Assembly (NCBI GenBank): GCA_030613025.1
Contig: JAUWMT010000016.1
Location: 1-53,657 of the forward strand
Reading direction: 5' to 3'
From: Candidatus Cloacimonadota bacterium
Lineage (GTDB): Bacteria > Cloacimonadota > Cloacimonadia > JGIOTU-2
Length of the DNA stretch: 53,657 nt
Shown: positions 7,034 to 45,333 of the stretch, piece after piece
Numbering within the stretch: position 1 is the first letter of the stretch
Layout: each line of letters starts with the position of its first letter
Made by a program: the position numbers and the translations under genes
Notes under the pieces: generated by a model
What the model was told of the DNA's origin: nothing
Databases searched by the model: none
What the model saw: only the letters and a program-made list of their open reading frames with translations

Positions 7034-9165
7034 TCTACACCCAGCATACGAATAATAAAGGCATATCGCTCTGCAATGTCCTCGTACTGTGTATATCTTC
7101 CCGAACCGCCGTAATGGCCAGCCATATTCGTTTTAAGTATGAGTACATTATCATCTGTTTTCATATCACGCACTTTTGCCACCCAGCGAAGTGGCTGCCA
7201 GTAGCGTACCCTGCTGTCATGATATCCTGCAGTGAGCATCATATTGGGATAGGATTGCTTCTTGATATTCTGATATGTATCCCACGAAAGCAGATAATCG
7301 AAGTATTCTTTTTTATGTGGATTTCCCAGCTCATCATAATGATATTTTGTACCCGAAGCAGTCGAGTCCATAAGAACGGTGAGTTTATCCATTGATGGAA
7401 CATCAGCGACAATCACTCCAAAAAGATCAGGACGCCAATTGGCGATAACTCCCATAATCATGCCACCGGCGCTTGCACCAAAAGCTGCCAGTTTTTCAGG
7501 GTTTGTGTATTTATTATCGATCAAGAACTCTGCACAGGCAATATAATCGAAAAAAGTATTTTTTTTATTGAGCAATTTCCCCTGTTCATACCACTGCTCG
7601 CCTTTTTCTTTTCCGCCACGCACATGAGCAATAGCATAGACGAATCCCCTATCCAGCAAACTTATACGGGCGCGGGAGAAACCGGGATTTCTGCTATTAC
7701 CATACGCTCCATACGCATGAAGATACAAGGGATTGCTTCCATTGTTTTTGAAAAGTTCTCTTTTATAAACAATCGAAATGGGAACTTTTTCACCATCATG
7801 GGATGTTGCATATACTCGCTCGGACTGATACTCATCAGGGTCAAATCCTCCAACTACCTCATAACGTTTGAGGAGTTTTCTCTCTTTTGATTTCATATTA
7901 TAAGCATATACAGAAGAGGGTGTGGTAAGCGAAGAATATGAGAAGTACAAGGTGTCGGTGATAAAATCCGGAGTCCATCTGTCATAGTATGCATACACTT
8001 TTTCAGGAAAAGTCATATAATAATCCGTGCCATCTTCAAGAAGAAAAATATGCGGTTTGATAACACCGCTATGTTGCTCGTACACGACGATATACTTCTC
8101 AAAAACATCGAATCCATCAATATAAATTGAATCATTATGAGGAATAAAAGTTTCCCATTTGAGCGGGTCGCTGGAATTAGCGGTCATAATTTTGTAATTC
8201 GGAGCAGACTCATTAGTTCGAATGTACCATGTATCACCATTGTTGGTTATATAATATTTCACACCTTGCTTGCGTGGCTTAAAAAGAGTGAATGATCCTA
8301 TAGCCGGCGGATCATCTGCATCGAGATACCGCACTTCCGAGGTTGTTTTGCTGTTCGTTCCCAAAACGATGTAATCATTTGAACGGGTCCTTCCAAACCA
8401 TACATAGAATGCGTTGTCATCTTCCTTGTAAATGAGCTCGTCATCAGCGGAATCTGATCCGAGAACATGTCTGTACGCTAGTTTGCTTTTCAGATTTTCC
8501 TCATTTGGAGTAACATAAAAGATGGTTTTATTATCATTTGCCCATTCCACATCATTGACAGGATATATTTTTTCAGCAAGCAATGTATCTGCCTGTATAT
8601 CTTTGACATATAGGGTGTAACGCTCAACGCCGGTTGTATCAACTGTATATGCAAGCAACCGTTGATCCGGGCTGTATTCACGTTTGCTGATCGAGAAAAA
8701 TTCATGACCTTCAGCGAGAGAGTTCACATCAAGGACTATTTCTTCGGGTGCAGAGAGCGAATTGAATTTCCTGCAATAGATCAGATAGGATTTTCCCTGT
8801 TCTCGTCTAGAGTAGTAATAATAATCACCCCAACGCGTCTGTGCATTGACTTCCTCTTCGCCGATCCTGCTGATGATCTCATTAAAGATCGTATCTTTGA
8901 GGGCTGACATTCCAGAAAGGATCGCTTCTGCATAAAGATTTTCTGCTTCGATATATTCTATTACAGTAGAATCGCTTCGAGTATCATCGATCATCCACTC
9001 GTAATCATCTTTCAGTTCGACGCCGTGCAAAGTTTTACTTGTTGGAATTTTCTGAGCATCCGAAGGTATTATTGATTCTGGCTGTTTACCTTCTTTATGA
9101 ACTTTCTGTGATGCACAAAAAGCAGCGACCAAAAGTATGATTATCAATAAAAAATATTTTTTCAC
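7030..9165 (-). CDS. S9 prolyl-oligopeptidase family (oligopeptidase B-like), divergent copy
   Basis: 711 aa from a GTG directly after the upstream copy's stop. N-terminal hydrophobic segment with Cys at ~17 (VAAFCASQ) suggests export, possibly as a lipoprotein, though Phe at -1 is unusual. A beta-propeller region is followed by the alpha/beta-hydrolase domain: GASAGG with Ser565, Asp650 in YHDSRVRYW, His684 in MAGHYGGSGR, so the catalytic triad is intact. The two glutamates that select basic P1 residues in oligopeptidase B (E-x-E before WGNP) are His609 and Asp611 here (HYDELGNP), so specificity has probably shifted. Its stop overlaps gshA as ATGA. Confidence 0.9.
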   Translation of the reverse strand: MKKYFLLIIILLVAAFCASQKVHKEGKQPESIIPSDAQKIPTSKTLHGVELKDDYEWMIDDTRSDSTVIEYIEAENLYAEAILSGMSALKDTIFNEIISRIGEEEVNAQTRWGDYYYYSRREQGKSYLIYCRKFNSLSAPEEIVLDVNSLAEGHEFFSISKREYSPDQRLLAYTVDTTGVERYTLYVKDIQADTLLAEKIYPVNDVEWANDNKTIFYVTPNEENLKSKLAYRHVLGSDSADDELIYKEDDNAFYVWFGRTRSNDYIVLGTNSKTTSEVRYLDADDPPAIGSFTLFKPRKQGVKYYITNNGDTWYIRTNESAPNYKIMTANSSDPLKWETFIPHNDSIYIDGFDVFEKYIVVYEQHSGVIKPHIFLLEDGTDYYMTFPEKVYAYYDRWTPDFITDTLYFSYSSLTTPSSVYAYNMKSKERKLLKRYEVVGGFDPDEYQSERVYATSHDGEKVPISIVYKRELFKNNGSNPLYLHAYGAYGNSRNPGFSRARISLLDRGFVYAIAHVRGGKEKGEQWYEQGKLLNKKNTFFDYIACAEFLIDNKYTNPEKLAAFGASAGGMIMGVIANWRPDLFGVIVADVPSMDKLTVLMDSTASGTKYHYDELGNPHKKEYFDYLLSWDTYQNIKKQSYPNMMLTAGYHDSRVRYWQPLRWVAKVRDMKTDDNVLILKTNMAGHYGGSGRYTQYEDIAERYAFIIRMLGVE

Positions 9166-11301
9166 TTAGAATTCAATTCCAAAAATATCGAACATAAAGG
9201 CATATTTCAATGCAACTTCTCTCAGATGACTAAATCTTCCGGACGCACCAGCATGACCCGAAAACCGGATCTTCAGAAGTGCGAGATTTTTATCCAATTT
9301 TTTATCACGGATCTTTGCGATCCACTTTGCCGGTTCCCAGTAATTAACACGGGGATCATAAAATCCGCCGAAAGCAAGTATATGAGGATAATGCTGCGCC
9401 TTCACGTTTTGATAGGGGCAATAGGAATAAATATAATCGAAATAAACTTTATCATGAGGATTTCCCCACTCCTCATACTCAGAAATTGTGGCAGAGAGAG
9501 AGGGATCAAGTATAGTATTGATGACATCCACAAACGGAACATCAGCAATAGCGATCTCGCACAGTTCGGGACGCATATTCAGCACTGCACCAATGAGAAG
9601 TCCTCCAGCGCTTCCGCCCTGAATTGCTAATTTTTCTTTGCTCGTATATTTTTCCCGAATAAGAAATTCTTCGCATGCAATGAAATCTGTGAAAGTGTTT
9701 TTCTTATTAAGCATCCGCCCCTGATCGTGCCATTGCTTCCCATATTCGCCACCACCGCGGATATGAGCTATCACATATACGAATCCTCTATCCAGCAAAC
9801 TTAAACGGGCTGAAGAGAAATATGGTTCATAGGTGTCTCCATAAGATCCGTAACCAGTAAGATACAAAGGATTGGATCCGTCTTTTGCAAACAATTCTTT
9901 TTTATATACAAGAGAAATCGGAATTTTGGTTCCATCTAAGGCAGTTGCATAAATTCTCTCCTGATTATATAATGAAGGATCATAGAATCCTTTTATTGTT
10001 TTCTGTTTACGTATTACTTTTTCCTGAGTTTGCATATTATAATCATACACAGAATAAGGTGTGACCATAGACTCGTAGGTAAATCTCAGATCCTTTGTAT
10101 CAAAATTCGGATTACTTCCGGAATATGTCGTATAAATCGGTTCAGTAAAATCTATATAATGTTCCTCTTCTGTATTCAAATCTATTATTCTAATTTTTTC
10201 TAAGGCATCCTCCTGTTCATAAATAACCATATAATCTTTGAATATATCGATGTTAATAGAAACAGAGTCCCTGTGAGGAATAAACTCCTTCCAATTTTCT
10301 TTCCCGGGATTTTGGATCGAAGTTACCATTACCTTATAATTTTTTGCATCATCATTAGATACAATAAAAAATTCATCAATATGAGGACAGATATAATATC
10401 TATGTCCTTGTTCACGTGGTTGGACAATCTTAAATTCTCCGCTAGCTGGCGGTTCATCAGCTTTTAAATATCGGATTTCATAAGTAGTCTTACTGCCACT
10501 TGTAAATATCAAATATTCTTTACTTCTCGATTTATAAATCCATAAATAAAAAGCTCCGTCATTCTCTTGATAAATCAACTTGTCGTTTTTTATGTCAGTT
10601 CCCAGAACATGACGATATAATTTATCACTTCTTCCCGACTCATTTTCTGTTATATAAAATAAAGTTTGATTGTCATTAGCCCACTCAACATCATCAACAG
10701 GATAGGCAGTATCAGATAGAAAATAATTTTCCTTAATATCCTTCACCGAAAGTGTATAACGTTCTGCACCGGTTGTATCAAAGGTAAAAGCAATGTACTG
10801 ATGATCGGGACTTACCACCAGATTCGACACATCGTAGAACTCATATCCTGAAGCCAGTTCATTTATATCAATAATAATTTCTTCTTCGGATTCGTGAATA
10901 CATTTTTTTCTACAATACAGGGAGTATTCTTCACCTTCAATATCCTTCCAGTAATAGTAAAAACTATCAATTCGGACAGGTACGGACATGTCAGTTTCCT
11001 GAATTTTGCCAACGATTTCCTGGAACAGTTGTTCCTGAAGTTCTTTGGTATGAAATAAAACACTATCTGTATAGGCATTTTCCTTTTCAATGTGTGCGAT
11101 CACTTCCGGATCAGTGCGGGTTTTGTCCTTCATCCAATAATAGTTATCGACCAATAATGTATCATGGATCGACAATTCATAAGGAATTTTCTTAGCTATT
11201 GGGGGTTGGGGATTTACTGCTCTTTTCTGCTCGTGAACAGTTCGAGTTGATGCGCACGCAATAATTGAGAGAGCTATCCCGATAAGGAATATTTTTTTCA
11301 T
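9166..11301 (-). CDS. oligopeptidase B-like S9 peptidase, lipoprotein
   Basis: 711 aa, the same length as its downstream tandem paralogue. SPII signal with a good lipobox (SIIAC, Cys16), so probably membrane-anchored outside the cytoplasm; classical oligopeptidase B is cytosolic. Propeller domain ~40-430, hydrolase domain after it. Triad Ser564 (GGSAGG), Asp649 (FYDPRVNYWEP) and His683 (FSGHAGASGR). The EYEEWGNP motif is intact with Glu608 and Glu610, implying cleavage after Arg/Lys as in oligopeptidase B. First gene of the four-gene run leading to gshA. The start has only a weak ribosome-binding site. Confidence 0.92.
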   Translation of the reverse strand: MKKIFLIGIALSIIACASTRTVHEQKRAVNPQPPIAKKIPYELSIHDTLLVDNYYWMKDKTRTDPEVIAHIEKENAYTDSVLFHTKELQEQLFQEIVGKIQETDMSVPVRIDSFYYYWKDIEGEEYSLYCRKKCIHESEEEIIIDINELASGYEFYDVSNLVVSPDHQYIAFTFDTTGAERYTLSVKDIKENYFLSDTAYPVDDVEWANDNQTLFYITENESGRSDKLYRHVLGTDIKNDKLIYQENDGAFYLWIYKSRSKEYLIFTSGSKTTYEIRYLKADEPPASGEFKIVQPREQGHRYYICPHIDEFFIVSNDDAKNYKVMVTSIQNPGKENWKEFIPHRDSVSINIDIFKDYMVIYEQEDALEKIRIIDLNTEEEHYIDFTEPIYTTYSGSNPNFDTKDLRFTYESMVTPYSVYDYNMQTQEKVIRKQKTIKGFYDPSLYNQERIYATALDGTKIPISLVYKKELFAKDGSNPLYLTGYGSYGDTYEPYFSSARLSLLDRGFVYVIAHIRGGGEYGKQWHDQGRMLNKKNTFTDFIACEEFLIREKYTSKEKLAIQGGSAGGLLIGAVLNMRPELCEIAIADVPFVDVINTILDPSLSATISEYEEWGNPHDKVYFDYIYSYCPYQNVKAQHYPHILAFGGFYDPRVNYWEPAKWIAKIRDKKLDKNLALLKIRFSGHAGASGRFSHLREVALKYAFMFDIFGIEF

Positions 11302-13625: not shown

Positions 13626-14225
13626 TTACATAACCGATTCGATAACGATTGAGTAACTTTCATAATATTGGATCACACCTGTATCTATCGTCCAGCCCAC
13701 ATCGATAGTATCGATTAGTATAAATCCTTTCACTTCATGGGCTTTGGGGAAATGTGATTCGATCGTGTTCTGCAGGATGTTTGTTCTGCTCTTTGAAATC
13801 TTTAGCAGATCATCGGAAAATTGGACTCTCATTTCATTATGCAGGACTCCATCGCCCATTGGTTCTTTTATTATTTTTTCCGACTTAAGCACAGAGATGA
13901 GCACGCCCGTCTTTTCCAATCTGATAGTTTTATCCGGCTTTACATTAGCAAGTTTGGCGTTCCGGATGCTGAGCTTCATTTCCTTCTCTCCATTTATGCT
14001 CGTATAGACAAACTGCATGCCTGCAAGCTGTTCTGCGATATTTTTCCGCGCAGTCGCTTCAGCCATGTTCTTTGCCATTCCTTCATTCATGGATCTTGAA
14101 AAACCGTAGCCGAGCACCTGTTTTTGAACTTCCTTATAGGTTACATTTTTGTAATCGAAATGATCAACAGAAACACATCCTGTAAGCAATATAACTGCAA
14201 TAAAACCTGTAATGAAAGCTTTCAT
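13626..14225 (-). CDS. LPP20-like lipoprotein
   Basis: 199 aa. Lipobox LTGC (Cys17) after a short signal; AGGAG upstream. The body has the pattern of LPP20/FlgP-like lipoproteins: RSMNEGMAKNMAEATARKNIAEQLAG near 43-68, an amphipathic helix of repeated Ala and charged residues, then beta-rich sequence to ESYSIVIESVM. Function is not known for most members; in flagellated bacteria some build outer-membrane rings. It follows a repeat-rich gap and is 11 nt after hutU on the same strand, so it may be cotranscribed. Moderately sure of the family. Compare the LPP20-type N-terminus at 43999-45333. Confidence 0.7.
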   Translation of the reverse strand: MKAFITGFIAVILLTGCVSVDHFDYKNVTYKEVQKQVLGYGFSRSMNEGMAKNMAEATARKNIAEQLAGMQFVYTSINGEKEMKLSIRNAKLANVKPDKTIRLEKTGVLISVLKSEKIIKEPMGDGVLHNEMRVQFSDDLLKISKSRTNILQNTIESHFPKAHEVKGFILIDTIDVGWTIDTGVIQYYESYSIVIESVM

Positions 14226-41499: not shown

Positions 41500-42666
41500 T
41501 TAATTAAAGTAGAAAATTCCTGAAAGTGTGAAAATAGTTGAGGAAACCTGCCTATAGTCTCCTCCGGAAGTTAATTCCTGTTTATACGAATCAAAAGTAA
41601 CTGTAGCATCAAGCGCAAATTTTTCAAAAATCAAACCTGAACCAACTGCAAATCCGGAACCAACAACCTGATCACGTGGGACAGGGTCATCGACCCAATA
41701 ATCATCATAGTTGGAAAAAATAGTCGGCACTGTATGGAATCCAGCGCGCAGCGGTATTACTGCAAAATCTGTAATGAAGAGATATTCTGCACCTGCACGG
41801 ATTTGATCAAGATTATAATCACTAATAATATCTGGCTCAGAACCATCATCATAAGTAATTTGCTTATCTTTATATGCACGTGTTTCATAATCTGCGGAAA
41901 TTGTGAAATTATCTCCCAATTGAACTGAGGCACCGACACCAATCATTGCTGGCATCTGAATTGTCTCTGTGACTTCACCTAAATCACCTTCAAGGTCAAA
42001 GGGTGATTTGAAATCGACACCGATCTTAAGTGGAATGGGATTGCTTAAATTTGAGAGATTTATCATAGCTCCTGCATTGAAATTGAAACCACTGAAATCC
42101 TCCGAATAATCGAATGGAATCCAACCATAACCATCCCAATAATCGGCATTAACCGACATAGAACCTGTCCACACATTAGAAGCTAAACCTATAGAAAAAA
42201 TTGGAAGAATCTCTGCGGCCAAACCCAGACTTATATTGGACGCACCACCGGTTGCCTCACCTCTCGTAAATTCTTCCAAATTCCATTTCGTATATAAATC
42301 AAGCTGTTGCTGATACGCCACAGCAGCTACGACTTTCAATCCGGGGAAATTAAAAGGATACACTCCACTTGCAAAATTGGGAACAAAATGACCTAAAGAT
42401 TCTGATTCACTTCTTCCTGAAAAATCAGTCTTGTATGTATCTGTAATATAACGCATCACAGCTGAAGCTTCAGGATCAATAAGCTGTGTAAGACCTGCCG
42501 GATTCCAGCTGATCGCTGTAGCATCATCTGCCACACCGATAAATGCCCCGCCAAAACCTGCAGCTCGTGCGCCGGCTCCGGTGAGATTCCAGTTGATATT
42601 CTGTGCATAGCTTAAGGAAGTTACACAGAAGAGAATCGAAATAAGAATAATGATAAATTTTTTCAT
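41500..42666 (-). CDS. outer-membrane beta-barrel protein (FadL/OmpP1-like)
   Basis: 388 aa. Signal peptide 1-21 (SLSYA). Mature N-terminus NWNLTGAGARAAGFGGAFIGVADDATAISWNPAGL (quoted in parts: GAGARAAGFGGAFIGVADDA, ISWNPAGLTQL) is the FadL/PorV-type start where Asn-Pro-Ala-Gly is diagnostic; alternating beta-strand sequence follows to a C-terminal aromatic strand (FTLSGIFYFN) as for barrel assembly. Could transport hydrophobic compounds or act in type IX-like secretion. Third gene of the LPP20 / CsgG-FlgT_C / porin operon, 13 nt after the previous stop, followed by a strong terminator. Confidence 0.85.
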   Translation of the reverse strand: MKKFIIILISILFCVTSLSYAQNINWNLTGAGARAAGFGGAFIGVADDATAISWNPAGLTQLIDPEASAVMRYITDTYKTDFSGRSESESLGHFVPNFASGVYPFNFPGLKVVAAVAYQQQLDLYTKWNLEEFTRGEATGGASNISLGLAAEILPIFSIGLASNVWTGSMSVNADYWDGYGWIPFDYSEDFSGFNFNAGAMINLSNLSNPIPLKIGVDFKSPFDLEGDLGEVTETIQMPAMIGVGASVQLGDNFTISADYETRAYKDKQITYDDGSEPDIISDYNLDQIRAGAEYLFITDFAVIPLRAGFHTVPTIFSNYDDYWVDDPVPRDQVVGSGFAVGSGLIFEKFALDATVTFDSYKQELTSGGDYRQVSSTIFTLSGIFYFN

Positions 42667-42679
42667 TAATACTCCTAAT

Positions 42680-43984
42680 TTATTTTATTACTACTTTATC
42701 TCCAATTTTGATAGAACCCTCTTTTGCCAAAATTTTCGCAACAGACATCTTTTCATGAACCTGAGTAACTATCAACTCACCGAGCAAAGTGACTTTTGTG
42801 CCCAGAACTTCTTTTGTGATAGGATGAATGATCTCATCGCCTTCACGGAAAGCAACACATTTTGTACCTTTTCGGATACCCACATTACTGCCAATATCAA
42901 GATAAATAACATTTTCGTCAGTGTTCACGATATAACCTTCCACAAGAGGAAGGGCATTATAGATCATAATTGCTATATTTTCAACCAGGAATTCGAGATT
43001 TGACATGCTCGGCTCGCCTGTTTGAGATTCCTTTGCAACGATCGTTTCTGCGGTTTCAGTATCAATTCCTCGTGCACTTACTTTTCCAAAGCCCTCGGCA
43101 ATATTTATTGTCCCAACAACGATCACATCTGCTCCTGCAAGTTTACCAACTTCAACAGCAGTTTCTTCATCGACCATGCCGGACATTCCTAATGCCTGCT
43201 CATTCATGACCTGATCCATTGCCCCACGCTCGATCACTCTGAATCTTCTCAGGTTGACAAGCTGGGTGATCAATTTTTCCATGAGTGTGAATTCAATTTC
43301 TTGTGCCTGACCCTTAGTTTCAAAAGGCAAAACTGCGATAGAAAGACGGGAGCCAACCTGGGTTACTTTGGACGGATCATAGGTGAGCGCACCGACTGGA
43401 ACCTTATCTTTTGGGGGTTCGAGCTTCACTCTTTCCTCATCTCTTTTTAAGGTTGGAATGATAGGTTTTTGTTCTATCTTTTTCTCGATCTGCTCCTTAT
43501 CAATATTAGCAATTTCTATGGGTTCTTTCTCCACTATTTCTTTCTCAACAGGTTTCTCTTCAACCTCAACAGGTTTTTCTTCGATCACTTCTTCAATGAT
43601 AACTTCTTGAACCACAATATCTTGATCTGGAGGAACTCCAAGCAGAACTTTTTCTAGATATCCCTCAGCTTCTTTTGATTTCTTGTATGCAATTGATAGT
43701 TCCAATTCGTCCTTTGCTTTATCCAATTCTCCAAGATGATAATAGGCAATACCCATTTCGCGGTGAGGAAAATATTTTATGAATCTCGTGCCATAAGTGC
43801 GCATCTTTTTGGAATCCTCAAATTCAAGTGAAGCAGCACTTTTGAATTCCTCGATAGCACGCATCCAATCACCTCTTAACATATACTCCTCTCCCTTATC
43901 ATAGTATTGATAGAACTTCTCCAGTCCATGAAGGAATGATGTCGTAAGTGTGAGCATAAGTAAAAAGATTATTATTTTTTTCAT
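42680..43984 (-). CDS. TPR-CsgG-like-FlgT_C outer-membrane-associated protein
   Basis: 434 aa. Signal peptide 1-20. Residues ~25-115 contain TPR-like helices (YYDKGEEYMLRGDWMRAIEE, AYYHLGELDKAKDELELSIA). A Glu/Val/Pro-rich linker (~128-190, e.g. EKPVEVEEKPVEKEIVEKEP) leads to a CsgG-type domain (~205-330: RLSIAVLPFETKGQ, LMEKLITQLVNLRRFRVIER, VGKLAGADVIVVGTI) and a FlgT C-terminal-like domain (~345-434: VEGYIVNTDENVIYLDIGSN, GIRKGTKCVAFREG, KIGDKVVIK). This combination suggests a periplasmic or outer-membrane ring or channel component. 15 nt separate it from the LPP20-domain gene. Confidence 0.85.
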   Translation of the reverse strand: MKKIIIFLLMLTLTTSFLHGLEKFYQYYDKGEEYMLRGDWMRAIEEFKSAASLEFEDSKKMRTYGTRFIKYFPHREMGIAYYHLGELDKAKDELELSIAYKKSKEAEGYLEKVLLGVPPDQDIVVQEVIIEEVIEEKPVEVEEKPVEKEIVEKEPIEIANIDKEQIEKKIEQKPIIPTLKRDEERVKLEPPKDKVPVGALTYDPSKVTQVGSRLSIAVLPFETKGQAQEIEFTLMEKLITQLVNLRRFRVIERGAMDQVMNEQALGMSGMVDEETAVEVGKLAGADVIVVGTINIAEGFGKVSARGIDTETAETIVAKESQTGEPSMSNLEFLVENIAIMIYNALPLVEGYIVNTDENVIYLDIGSNVGIRKGTKCVAFREGDEIIHPITKEVLGTKVTLLGELIVTQVHEKMSVAKILAKEGSIKIGDKVVIK

Positions 43985-43998
43985 GAAAGCTCCAAAAA

Positions 43999-45333
43999 TT
44001 ATTGCATTATTTCAATGATCTCTGCCGAGATCTGCTTCGCTGCATTATCAAAAGCTGCCAAACCTGCTTTGTCCATATCTGTGTTTATGCCTTTCACATT
44101 AGAAAATGTATTCTTATATATTTCTTCGAAAGTGGACATATCCATCACAGAAATTGTTACATCCACATACGCAGAGCACATGTTGTAAATCGTTGATCCT
44201 TTTCGGGACTGAGCTTCAATGATCATGACATAATCAGCATCGGATTTCATGTCCACAAAACTGTAGCCGTTTTCGGACAGCTTCTCTTTCAGCTTGGGCT
44301 CAATATAGTTTACATCCAACGGTTTACCAAAATTGAGCTCGACAGATTCGACGAAAACCTGCGGTCCAGAAACATTCAGCAGCACATTTGCAGAAGGAAT
44401 TATGAGACTCTTTATAATATCCTGAATTATTGGATTCAATTCATCTTGGGCTACCAGCTTATCCATTGGCAGTTCTGCTTTAATGACCTGCATCTTATCT
44501 GCAGAAAGTATATTCGAGATTCTGCATGATGCCAAGCCACTCACCGCAGTTTTATCATATTCAATAAGCTCGCCCTCACCTTTGAGAAAGCTGAAATGAA
44601 TAGGAAGATTTGCAATAGGAGTTTGCAAATACAATGCTTTGAAAAGAATAGGATCATCCAGTCCTCTTCCTATAGTTGCAGTGATCTCCGGTTGAAGAGG
44701 TTTGATCGAAATTGTACCGAGAACTTGCTGCAAAGTCGAATGAATGGTATTAAGCAGATAGATATTCTGTCCGTTGTAGATTGTTTCAAGAGATTCGGAC
44801 AGAAAGGGTTCGATCGGGTTGAATGCCTGCAGGTATAACTGTAATGCTTCAGCGATCTGACCATTCGTTCTGTTCTGCTCAGCTTTATTAAAAAAATCCA
44901 GTGAGAGTGCAAGCGCCTTGTCTATTTTTTCTTTGCGCAGTTGGGCATATTTATCTTTTGAAAGCATGTAATAAACCCAGTACTGATTTTTGTCCTCCCA
45001 GGTGTCGACAAGTTCGTATCCTTCCAATTGTGCCTGAGTTGAGGATTGTATTTGTGATTCAAATTCCTCTTTCACCACACCGGCTTTTTCAAGAATTTGA
45101 TTTAGTGTCGCACCGCTTATCGTGACGGTGATCTCAGAAGCGATCTCCCGTAATGCCCGGTCCTTTGCTTTCTGAATATATTCGCTGGTCTCTGTATCTT
45201 TTTCTGCAACTCCGATACCAATATAAGAATTATTGTCAATTGGTCTCTTGTTGACCCAGTCCGGTTTTTTTGCAGCATAAACCGAAAAACACACAAACAA
45301 AAAAATAAAGAGAAAAACAATAATTTTTCTCAT
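43999..45333 (-). CDS. LPP20-domain exported protein
   Basis: 444 aa from the ATG at 45333 (GAGGTGAGCG upstream; seven extra in-frame codons rejected). Signal peptide 1-19 (VYAA). Residues ~20-115 are an LPP20-type domain: KKPDWVNKRPIDNNSYIGIG, KAKDRALREIASEITVTISG and YWVYYMLSKDKYAQLRKEK. Then a helical TPR-like segment (~130-190) and a long beta-rich C-terminus (~330-444) with repeated ISVMDMSTFEEIYKNTFS. Distantly like FlgP-type proteins but much longer. First gene of the envelope operon. Confidence 0.8.
   Translation of the reverse strand: MRKIIVFLFIFLFVCFSVYAAKKPDWVNKRPIDNNSYIGIGVAEKDTETSEYIQKAKDRALREIASEITVTISGATLNQILEKAGVVKEEFESQIQSSTQAQLEGYELVDTWEDKNQYWVYYMLSKDKYAQLRKEKIDKALALSLDFFNKAEQNRTNGQIAEALQLYLQAFNPIEPFLSESLETIYNGQNIYLLNTIHSTLQQVLGTISIKPLQPEITATIGRGLDDPILFKALYLQTPIANLPIHFSFLKGEGELIEYDKTAVSGLASCRISNILSADKMQVIKAELPMDKLVAQDELNPIIQDIIKSLIIPSANVLLNVSGPQVFVESVELNFGKPLDVNYIEPKLKEKLSENGYSFVDMKSDADYVMIIEAQSRKGSTIYNMCSAYVDVTISVMDMSTFEEIYKNTFSNVKGINTDMDKAGLAAFDNAAKQISAEIIEIMQ

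Follow-up and report, generated by a model that had tools for sequence, protein, structure and literature searches.

What do proteins resembling parts of a flagellar outer-membrane ring do in a bacterium whose genome yields no flagellar rod genes? The question is raised by three adjacent genes, called here the cassette, on the minus strand (45333-41500) of a 53,657-nt contig of a Candidatus Cloacimonadota bacterium, the whole stretch analysed being referred to as the window. The most economical reading of the parts is a flagellum-free, FlgT/FlgP-like scaffold with an outer-membrane (OM) barrel, and we tentatively favour, at somewhat less than even odds, a non-flagellar OM/periplasmic scaffold placed on that barrel and functionally linked to an envelope-sensing cyclase. 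The domain families are known ones in a new arrangement and context; no paper describing such a system was found in the open-licence literature searched, in agreement with a preliminary description of this DNA that regarded it as the window's best candidate for an undescribed system. The three genes are:

45333-43999, minus strand: gene 1, 444 amino acids (aa), exported, with an LPP20/FlgP-type domain
43984-42680, minus strand: gene 2, 434 aa, exported, FlgT-like in its predicted fold
42666-41500, minus strand: gene 3, 388 aa, predicted OM beta-barrel of the FadL superfamily

The three open reading frames are real and co-directional, as first described, with intergenic gaps of 14 bp (genes 1 and 2) and 13 bp (genes 2 and 3); an alternative TTG start would extend gene 1 to 451 aa and was judged less likely than the 444-aa form. 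Comparison with the nearest relatives indicates purifying selection on all three, with ratios of nonsynonymous to synonymous substitution rates (dN/dS) of about 0.11-0.14 for gene 1, 0.12 for gene 2 and 0.22 for gene 3. In the host genome (2.83 Mb, 98% complete), neither Flg_bb_rod nor YscJ_FliF was found, both being detected in four flagellated control genomes, and CsgF was also not found, the E. coli control being positive; the initial statement that the unit is without flagellar and curli genes extends, for these markers, to the genome.

Gene 2 comprises a signal peptide, a TPR region, a disordered Glu/Lys-rich linker (122-211), a CsgG/TolB_N-like domain and a C-terminal domain of FlgT_C/TsaP type. 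The best Protein Data Bank (PDB) matches of its model are to FlgT (Foldseek; 8z5n, expectation value E=2.2e-13; 3w1e, E=8.4e-13; over about 280 columns), which ranks ahead of TolB, GNA1162, LpoB, PelC and CsgG. The title of 8z5n reads just 'LPHT ring', and 8z5n_0 is probably FlgT of the Vibrio motor, judging from its length and its score beside 3w1e. A profile of the family (20-member alignment) matches TsaP through its C-terminal part (entries 3jc8 and 6ve2, with E values of 1.4e-6 and 5.7e-6), so that counterparts of both the M and the C domain of FlgT are recognisable, by the Foldseek matches and by the TsaP/FlgT_C profile match. The TPR-CsgG-FlgT_C architecture originally assigned to this protein stands with qualifications: FlgT_C is sub-threshold in the single sequence (Pfam E=0.065) and is recovered through the homologues (10/20 matched by Pfam), the profile and the fold; the TPR match is weak; and the CsgG match (Pfam E=3.7e-10) covers profile positions 40-98 only. 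LpoB is matched in all 20 family members.

Gene 1 belongs to the LPP20 family, of which FlgP is also a member. Its LPP20 domain, already recognised in the preliminary description, was identified with Pfam (E=4.2e-13, residues about 24-124) and lies between a signal peptide without a lipobox and a helical segment, followed by a beta region resembling an immunoglobulin (Ig) domain and a C-terminal CsgG/TolB_N-like alpha/beta domain (314-443). The AlphaFold monomer model (predicted local distance difference test score, pLDDT, 86.9) gave partial Foldseek matches to OM-associated domains of the HpaA, CsgG, FlgT, LptE and PelC types, and a search of the PDB by sequence with the LPP20 profile returned nothing useful. 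An SHS2-like fold is common to LPP20, FlgP and FlgT and is tied to OM-associated rings (PMC12222027). The gene 1 model is less certain (pLDDT 60-70) in the segment that joins the LPP20 helix to the following strand (residues 71-100), and in FlgP an insert at the equivalent place makes the ring (PMC12222027); a correspondence between the two segments is only suggestive.

Gene 3 carries the signature GARAAGFGGAFIGVADDATAISWNPAGLTQL, with the NPA-type N-terminal signature of the FadL superfamily. The Toluene_X match is sub-threshold (Pfam E=6.6e-5), and the NCBIfam matches to BamG (2.5e-12) and the PorV family (2.5e-11) lie below the equivalog cut-offs, so the FadL-like porin named in the preliminary description stands as a predicted barrel at superfamily level only. 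The nearest PDB entry to its family profile is 9hiv_F (E=8e-11), which is probably BamG of the F. johnsoniae beta-barrel assembly machinery (BAM) complex, going by the matching NCBIfam and paper evidence. BamG demonstrates that a FadL-family barrel can serve as a structural subunit (PMC12611786).

Gene presence was surveyed in 60 genomes, namely the host genome (G000) and 59 relatives, and genome contigs were scanned with the close LPP20 set. Gene association was compared in 57 long-LPP20 loci, loosely de-duplicated, several of those without a partner being cut by contig ends. In 42 of the 57, the long LPP20 gene has a CsgG/FlgT-like neighbour, counted as such when adjacent or when parted from it by nothing more than barrel genes or, in L075 and L147, by an Ig/BACON-type gene as well; two further loci have such a partner by separate evidence (G006, at a contig end, and G054, missed by the ORF picker). 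The pair occurs in Cloacimonadota, Marinimicrobia (Fidelibacterota), Calditrichota, Zixibacteria and Bacteroidota, usually as the CsgG/FlgT-like gene followed by LPP20 and frequently with a 4-bp overlap. The exact LPP20-CsgG-FadL order is complete only in the window and G001, with G002 and G006 breaking at a contig end. Association of the pair, though not the exact triplet order, is thus kept across at least five phyla, and the preliminary description was right in supposing an envelope unit independent of flagella and curli.

The conserved core is accordingly the CsgG/FlgT-like and LPP20 pair, with a lineage-dependent barrel. FadL barrels, one or two, lie within the cassette in 16 loci, all from Cloacimonadota, and a putative small barrel of about 210 aa takes the place of FadL in Calditrichota and Zixibacteria, one of two tested matching OMP_b-brl (E=0.037). 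A 439-aa Ig/BACON-domain protein is encoded between two FadL barrels in L075 (6288-7607; the Pfam assignment was made here), L125 (5277-6596) and L147 (5241-6560). Most relatives of family f3 have a lipobox on both proteins, and their CsgG-like protein is without the FlgT_C part. In the LPP20 tree, the window's genus groups with G009, of another genus, in a single clade with full support; G012 and G015, from the same family, stand apart and have a lipoprotein CsgG as partner, and a second supported clade holds those Cloacimonadota with FadL that lie outside the genus. Support for the deep joins is weak, and transfer is possible but not shown.

The cassette had been described as a closed three-gene unit, a view that does not survive the comparison, as many Cloacimonadota cassettes continue into genes for a CHASE2-adenylate cyclase and an SH3-M48 protease. 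In 13/57 loci the cyclase gene comes after LPP20 within one cluster, directly (-4, -1 or 0 bp) in most of those from Cloacimonadota, and the protease is also present in 7 of the 13, sometimes behind one or two opposite-strand genes. The cyclase-protease pair is also in the cluster in Marinimicrobia L130 and L134, with extra LPP20-like proteins in between; in L130 (6764-9171), three genes separate LPP20 from the cyclase, one for a 188-aa protein and two for short exported proteins (one of these a weak LPP20 match). The host genome has overlapping cyclase and protease genes on another contig (G000:C98; L149 5842-9314, with the cyclase at 7104-9314), and the genus as a whole keeps the pair at a site separate from the cassette. 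Reading of these sequences indicates that the metal-binding Asp residues are intact in the cyclase, as are the class IIIb Lys and Thr and the Asn and Arg used in catalysis, and that the protease keeps its HEIGH motif; on the Lys/Thr signature, we take the cyclase to be a class IIIb adenylate cyclase. Across the 60 genomes, the presence of long LPP20 is associated with that of this cyclase subfamily (Fisher p=0.0014, uncorrected for phylogeny).

A FlgT/FlgP-like scaffold is favoured because gene 2 combines a predicted FlgT-like fold with a FlgT_C/TsaP-type C-terminus and because the LPP20 family of gene 1 includes FlgP; placing it on a barrel is favoured because an OM-type barrel occurs between the pair in two unrelated forms (FadL and the putative small barrel), and a signalling role is added because the cyclase-protease linkage recurs. 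Under this proposal, the products of genes 1 and 2 would act together as a periplasmic scaffold, possibly ring-shaped, that docks on the dedicated barrel encoded by gene 3, to which the full form in relatives would add two parts, a class III adenylate cyclase with a CHASE2 domain in the inner membrane and an SH3-M48 protease in the periplasm. Its most likely job would be to hold or monitor the OM barrel or the interface between OM and peptidoglycan (PG), the state of the envelope being reported as cyclic AMP (cAMP) and faulty OM proteins being cleared by the protease; the host genome would keep the cyclase-protease pair as a separate locus.

Several observations weigh against this proposal. 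The gene 2 model is of low confidence (pLDDT 67), matching at domain level only, with a root-mean-square deviation of 15 Å across the whole alignment. Gene order in the window's genus, LPP20-CsgG(-FadL), is inverted relative to most relatives, and the cyclase is unlinked to the cassette there; the Bacteroidota and f3 loci have neither a FadL barrel nor an adjacent cyclase; and G005 and G007 keep the cyclase, the LPP20 protein being undetected in them. Gene 1 is also kept in G003 and G009, in both of which a gene 2 relative was undetected and a gene for a large beta-helix-type surface protein, 11-15 bp after gene 1, replaces the FlgT-like and FadL genes (G003, L073 2-1504; G009, L070 13-3162). 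The G009 beta-helix protein carries a type IX secretion system (T9SS) sorting domain, and both contigs end there, so that either gene 1 can be retained in the absence of its partner or the partner was missed in assembly.

Among the alternatives, the periplasm-spanning channel of the preliminary description would make the CsgG-like protein the OM pore of an export route for some cargo, consistent with the CsgG match of gene 2, CsgG itself being an OM pore, and with the exported beta-helix protein encoded after gene 1 in G003 and G009. A CsgG pore protein has a full CsgG domain with two added membrane hairpins and a lipidated Cys at its N-terminus, however, and the CsgG-like part of gene 2 is a short FlgT/TolB_N/LpoB-type domain without them, its alignment having no insertion and its model short strands only. 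Because gene 2 covers 59/210 CsgG positions, without pore hairpins and without a lipobox (there is no Cys at the end of its signal peptide, and gene 1 is no lipoprotein by this measure either), a CsgG-type channel is unsupported; the structural match is better to soluble FlgT, TolB and LpoB, the genome search for CsgF was negative, and the T9SS domain in G009 implies another exporter. A curli/CsgG-type pore was rejected on the partial CsgG coverage, the better FlgT match and the CsgF result, export of cargo in general is improbable, and the FadL-type barrel is the sole membrane-pore candidate among the three products. Descent from a lost flagellum, the genes being H-ring remnants or spare parts, would explain the FlgT/FlgP-like domains and would suit a class in which some relatives are flagellated, but this is the sort of explanation that the data leave with hardly any weight: long LPP20 proteins are present in 26/60 genomes and flagella in 7/60 with an overlap of one, the genes are under purifying selection, the association reaches Bacteroidota and Marinimicrobia, and the TPR, Ig-like and CsgG-like parts are not known from FlgP. 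Independence from flagella follows from the 25 unflagellated carriers of long LPP20 and not from mutual exclusion (Fisher p=0.13). Current H-ring membership was rejected on the lack of Flg_bb_rod and FliF in the genome, and since the flagellum is absent, the cassette is not an H-ring member, though it may work like one by analogy.

Uptake of hydrophobic solutes, or maintenance of OM lipids or OM proteins (OMPs), would instead put gene 3 at the centre, the barrel importing or assisting OMP biogenesis as BamG does, with the periplasmic pair as its adaptor and the cyclase link secondary. The FadL signature, the similarity to BamG and FadL/TbuX structures and the barrel's position adjoining the pair, often duplicated in Cloacimonadota, agree with this possibility, which nevertheless appears unlikely: in most phyla the pair occurs without a FadL barrel, and the other small barrel of Calditrichota and Zixibacteria makes hydrophobic uptake improbable as the core function. 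Less likely still is a generic LpoB/TolB-like regulator, in which gene 2 would activate a PG synthase or PG-OM tethering with gene 1 as partner and no signalling role. The LpoB match throughout the gene 2 family, the presence of the FlgT_C-type domain in the LysM protein TsaP and the SH3 domain on the linked protease point that way, but no PG synthase was recognised among the cassette genes scanned and the cyclase linkage would go unexplained.

Three further features of the window were assessed:

45393-45388, minus strand: TTGACA hexamer upstream of gene 1, as read in the sequence
41478-41455, minus strand: intrinsic terminator AGGGCTTCTGATTACGGAAGCCCT followed by a T tract, 21 bp past gene 3
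13626-14225, minus strand: gene for a small lipoprotein, conserved in the genus at 51-93% identity

The strong terminator reported at one end of the cassette is present, with a 10-bp stem containing six GC pairs. The TTGACA box reported at the other end is also present, but a -10 element at a spacing of 16-18 nt is lacking; it was rejected as a promoter, promoter-like sites in the region being at chance level (14 found against 14.2 expected) and the hexamer not being among them. The suggestion that the small lipoprotein is LPP20-like finds marginal resemblance only, with no Pfam match and hhalign values of 0.2% for the single sequence and 28% with the family profile. Its GYGFSR...AEATARKNIAEQL stretch resembles LPP20, distant relatives occur in G008, G026 and G044, and a paralogue lies at G000:C29. 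Two more CsgG-domain lipoproteins are encoded in the host genome (G000:C66:5850-6125 and C74:91372-91650), and the stretches read there showed no recognisable gene of the LPP20 family.

FlgO, FlgP and FlgT are usually discussed as flagellar add-ons, and the cassette offers a specific case in which this domain kit may serve outside flagella, as well as a candidate OM-to-cytoplasm signalling route in the Fibrobacteres-Chlorobi-Bacteroidetes (FCB) group. A wider and more speculative proposal, which we consider rather unlikely, is that a widespread non-flagellar FlgT/LPP20 ring on a barrel forms the sensor arm of OM-to-cytoplasm signalling that ends in the CHASE2 cyclase and is tuned by the M48 protease, in which case flagellar H-rings would be a single specialised application of an envelope module that predates them. 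How flagellar OM rings arose becomes a question that phylogeny can test.

Comparison with known systems places the favoured scaffold among several partial counterparts. The mtxA cluster of Magnetospirillum also has a gene for an exported protein followed by a CHASE2 cyclase gene, and the part of its description considered here names no LPP20, CsgG/FlgT-like or barrel gene (PMC4439547). Curli secretion (CsgG/CsgF/CsgE) shares the CsgG-type alpha/beta domain, which in gene 2 is a partial, predicted domain and not a demonstrated pore, lacking the lipobox, the added hairpins and an accompanying CsgF gene in the genome. TsaP, associated with the type IV pilus secretin, shares the C-terminal FlgT_C-type domain (PDB 3jc8, 6ve2) but is a LysM protein in which the TPR-CsgG-like arrangement is missing, and no secretin was recognised beside the window genes. 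The BamG, FadL and PorV barrels resemble gene 3 in superfamily and N-terminal signature, and differ in that gene 3 falls below their equivalog cut-offs and is linked to FlgT/LPP20-like genes and not to BAM or T9SS genes. The closest likeness in predicted fold is to FlgT of the Vibrio H-ring (FlgT-FlgO-FlgP), where an LPP20-type protein and a CsgG/TolB_N-like FlgT_C protein are likewise encoded together. FlgP there has an LPP20 domain with an OM lipid anchor; gene 1 has the LPP20 domain (E=4e-13), and a lipobox is missing from the window protein but present in most f3 relatives. The cassette differs in being without a flagellum, in the TPR and long linker of gene 2 where FlgT has its N-domain, in the extra Ig-like and CsgG-like domains of gene 1, and in having an OM barrel gene linked to it, joined in relatives by genes for a CHASE2 cyclase and an M48 protease.

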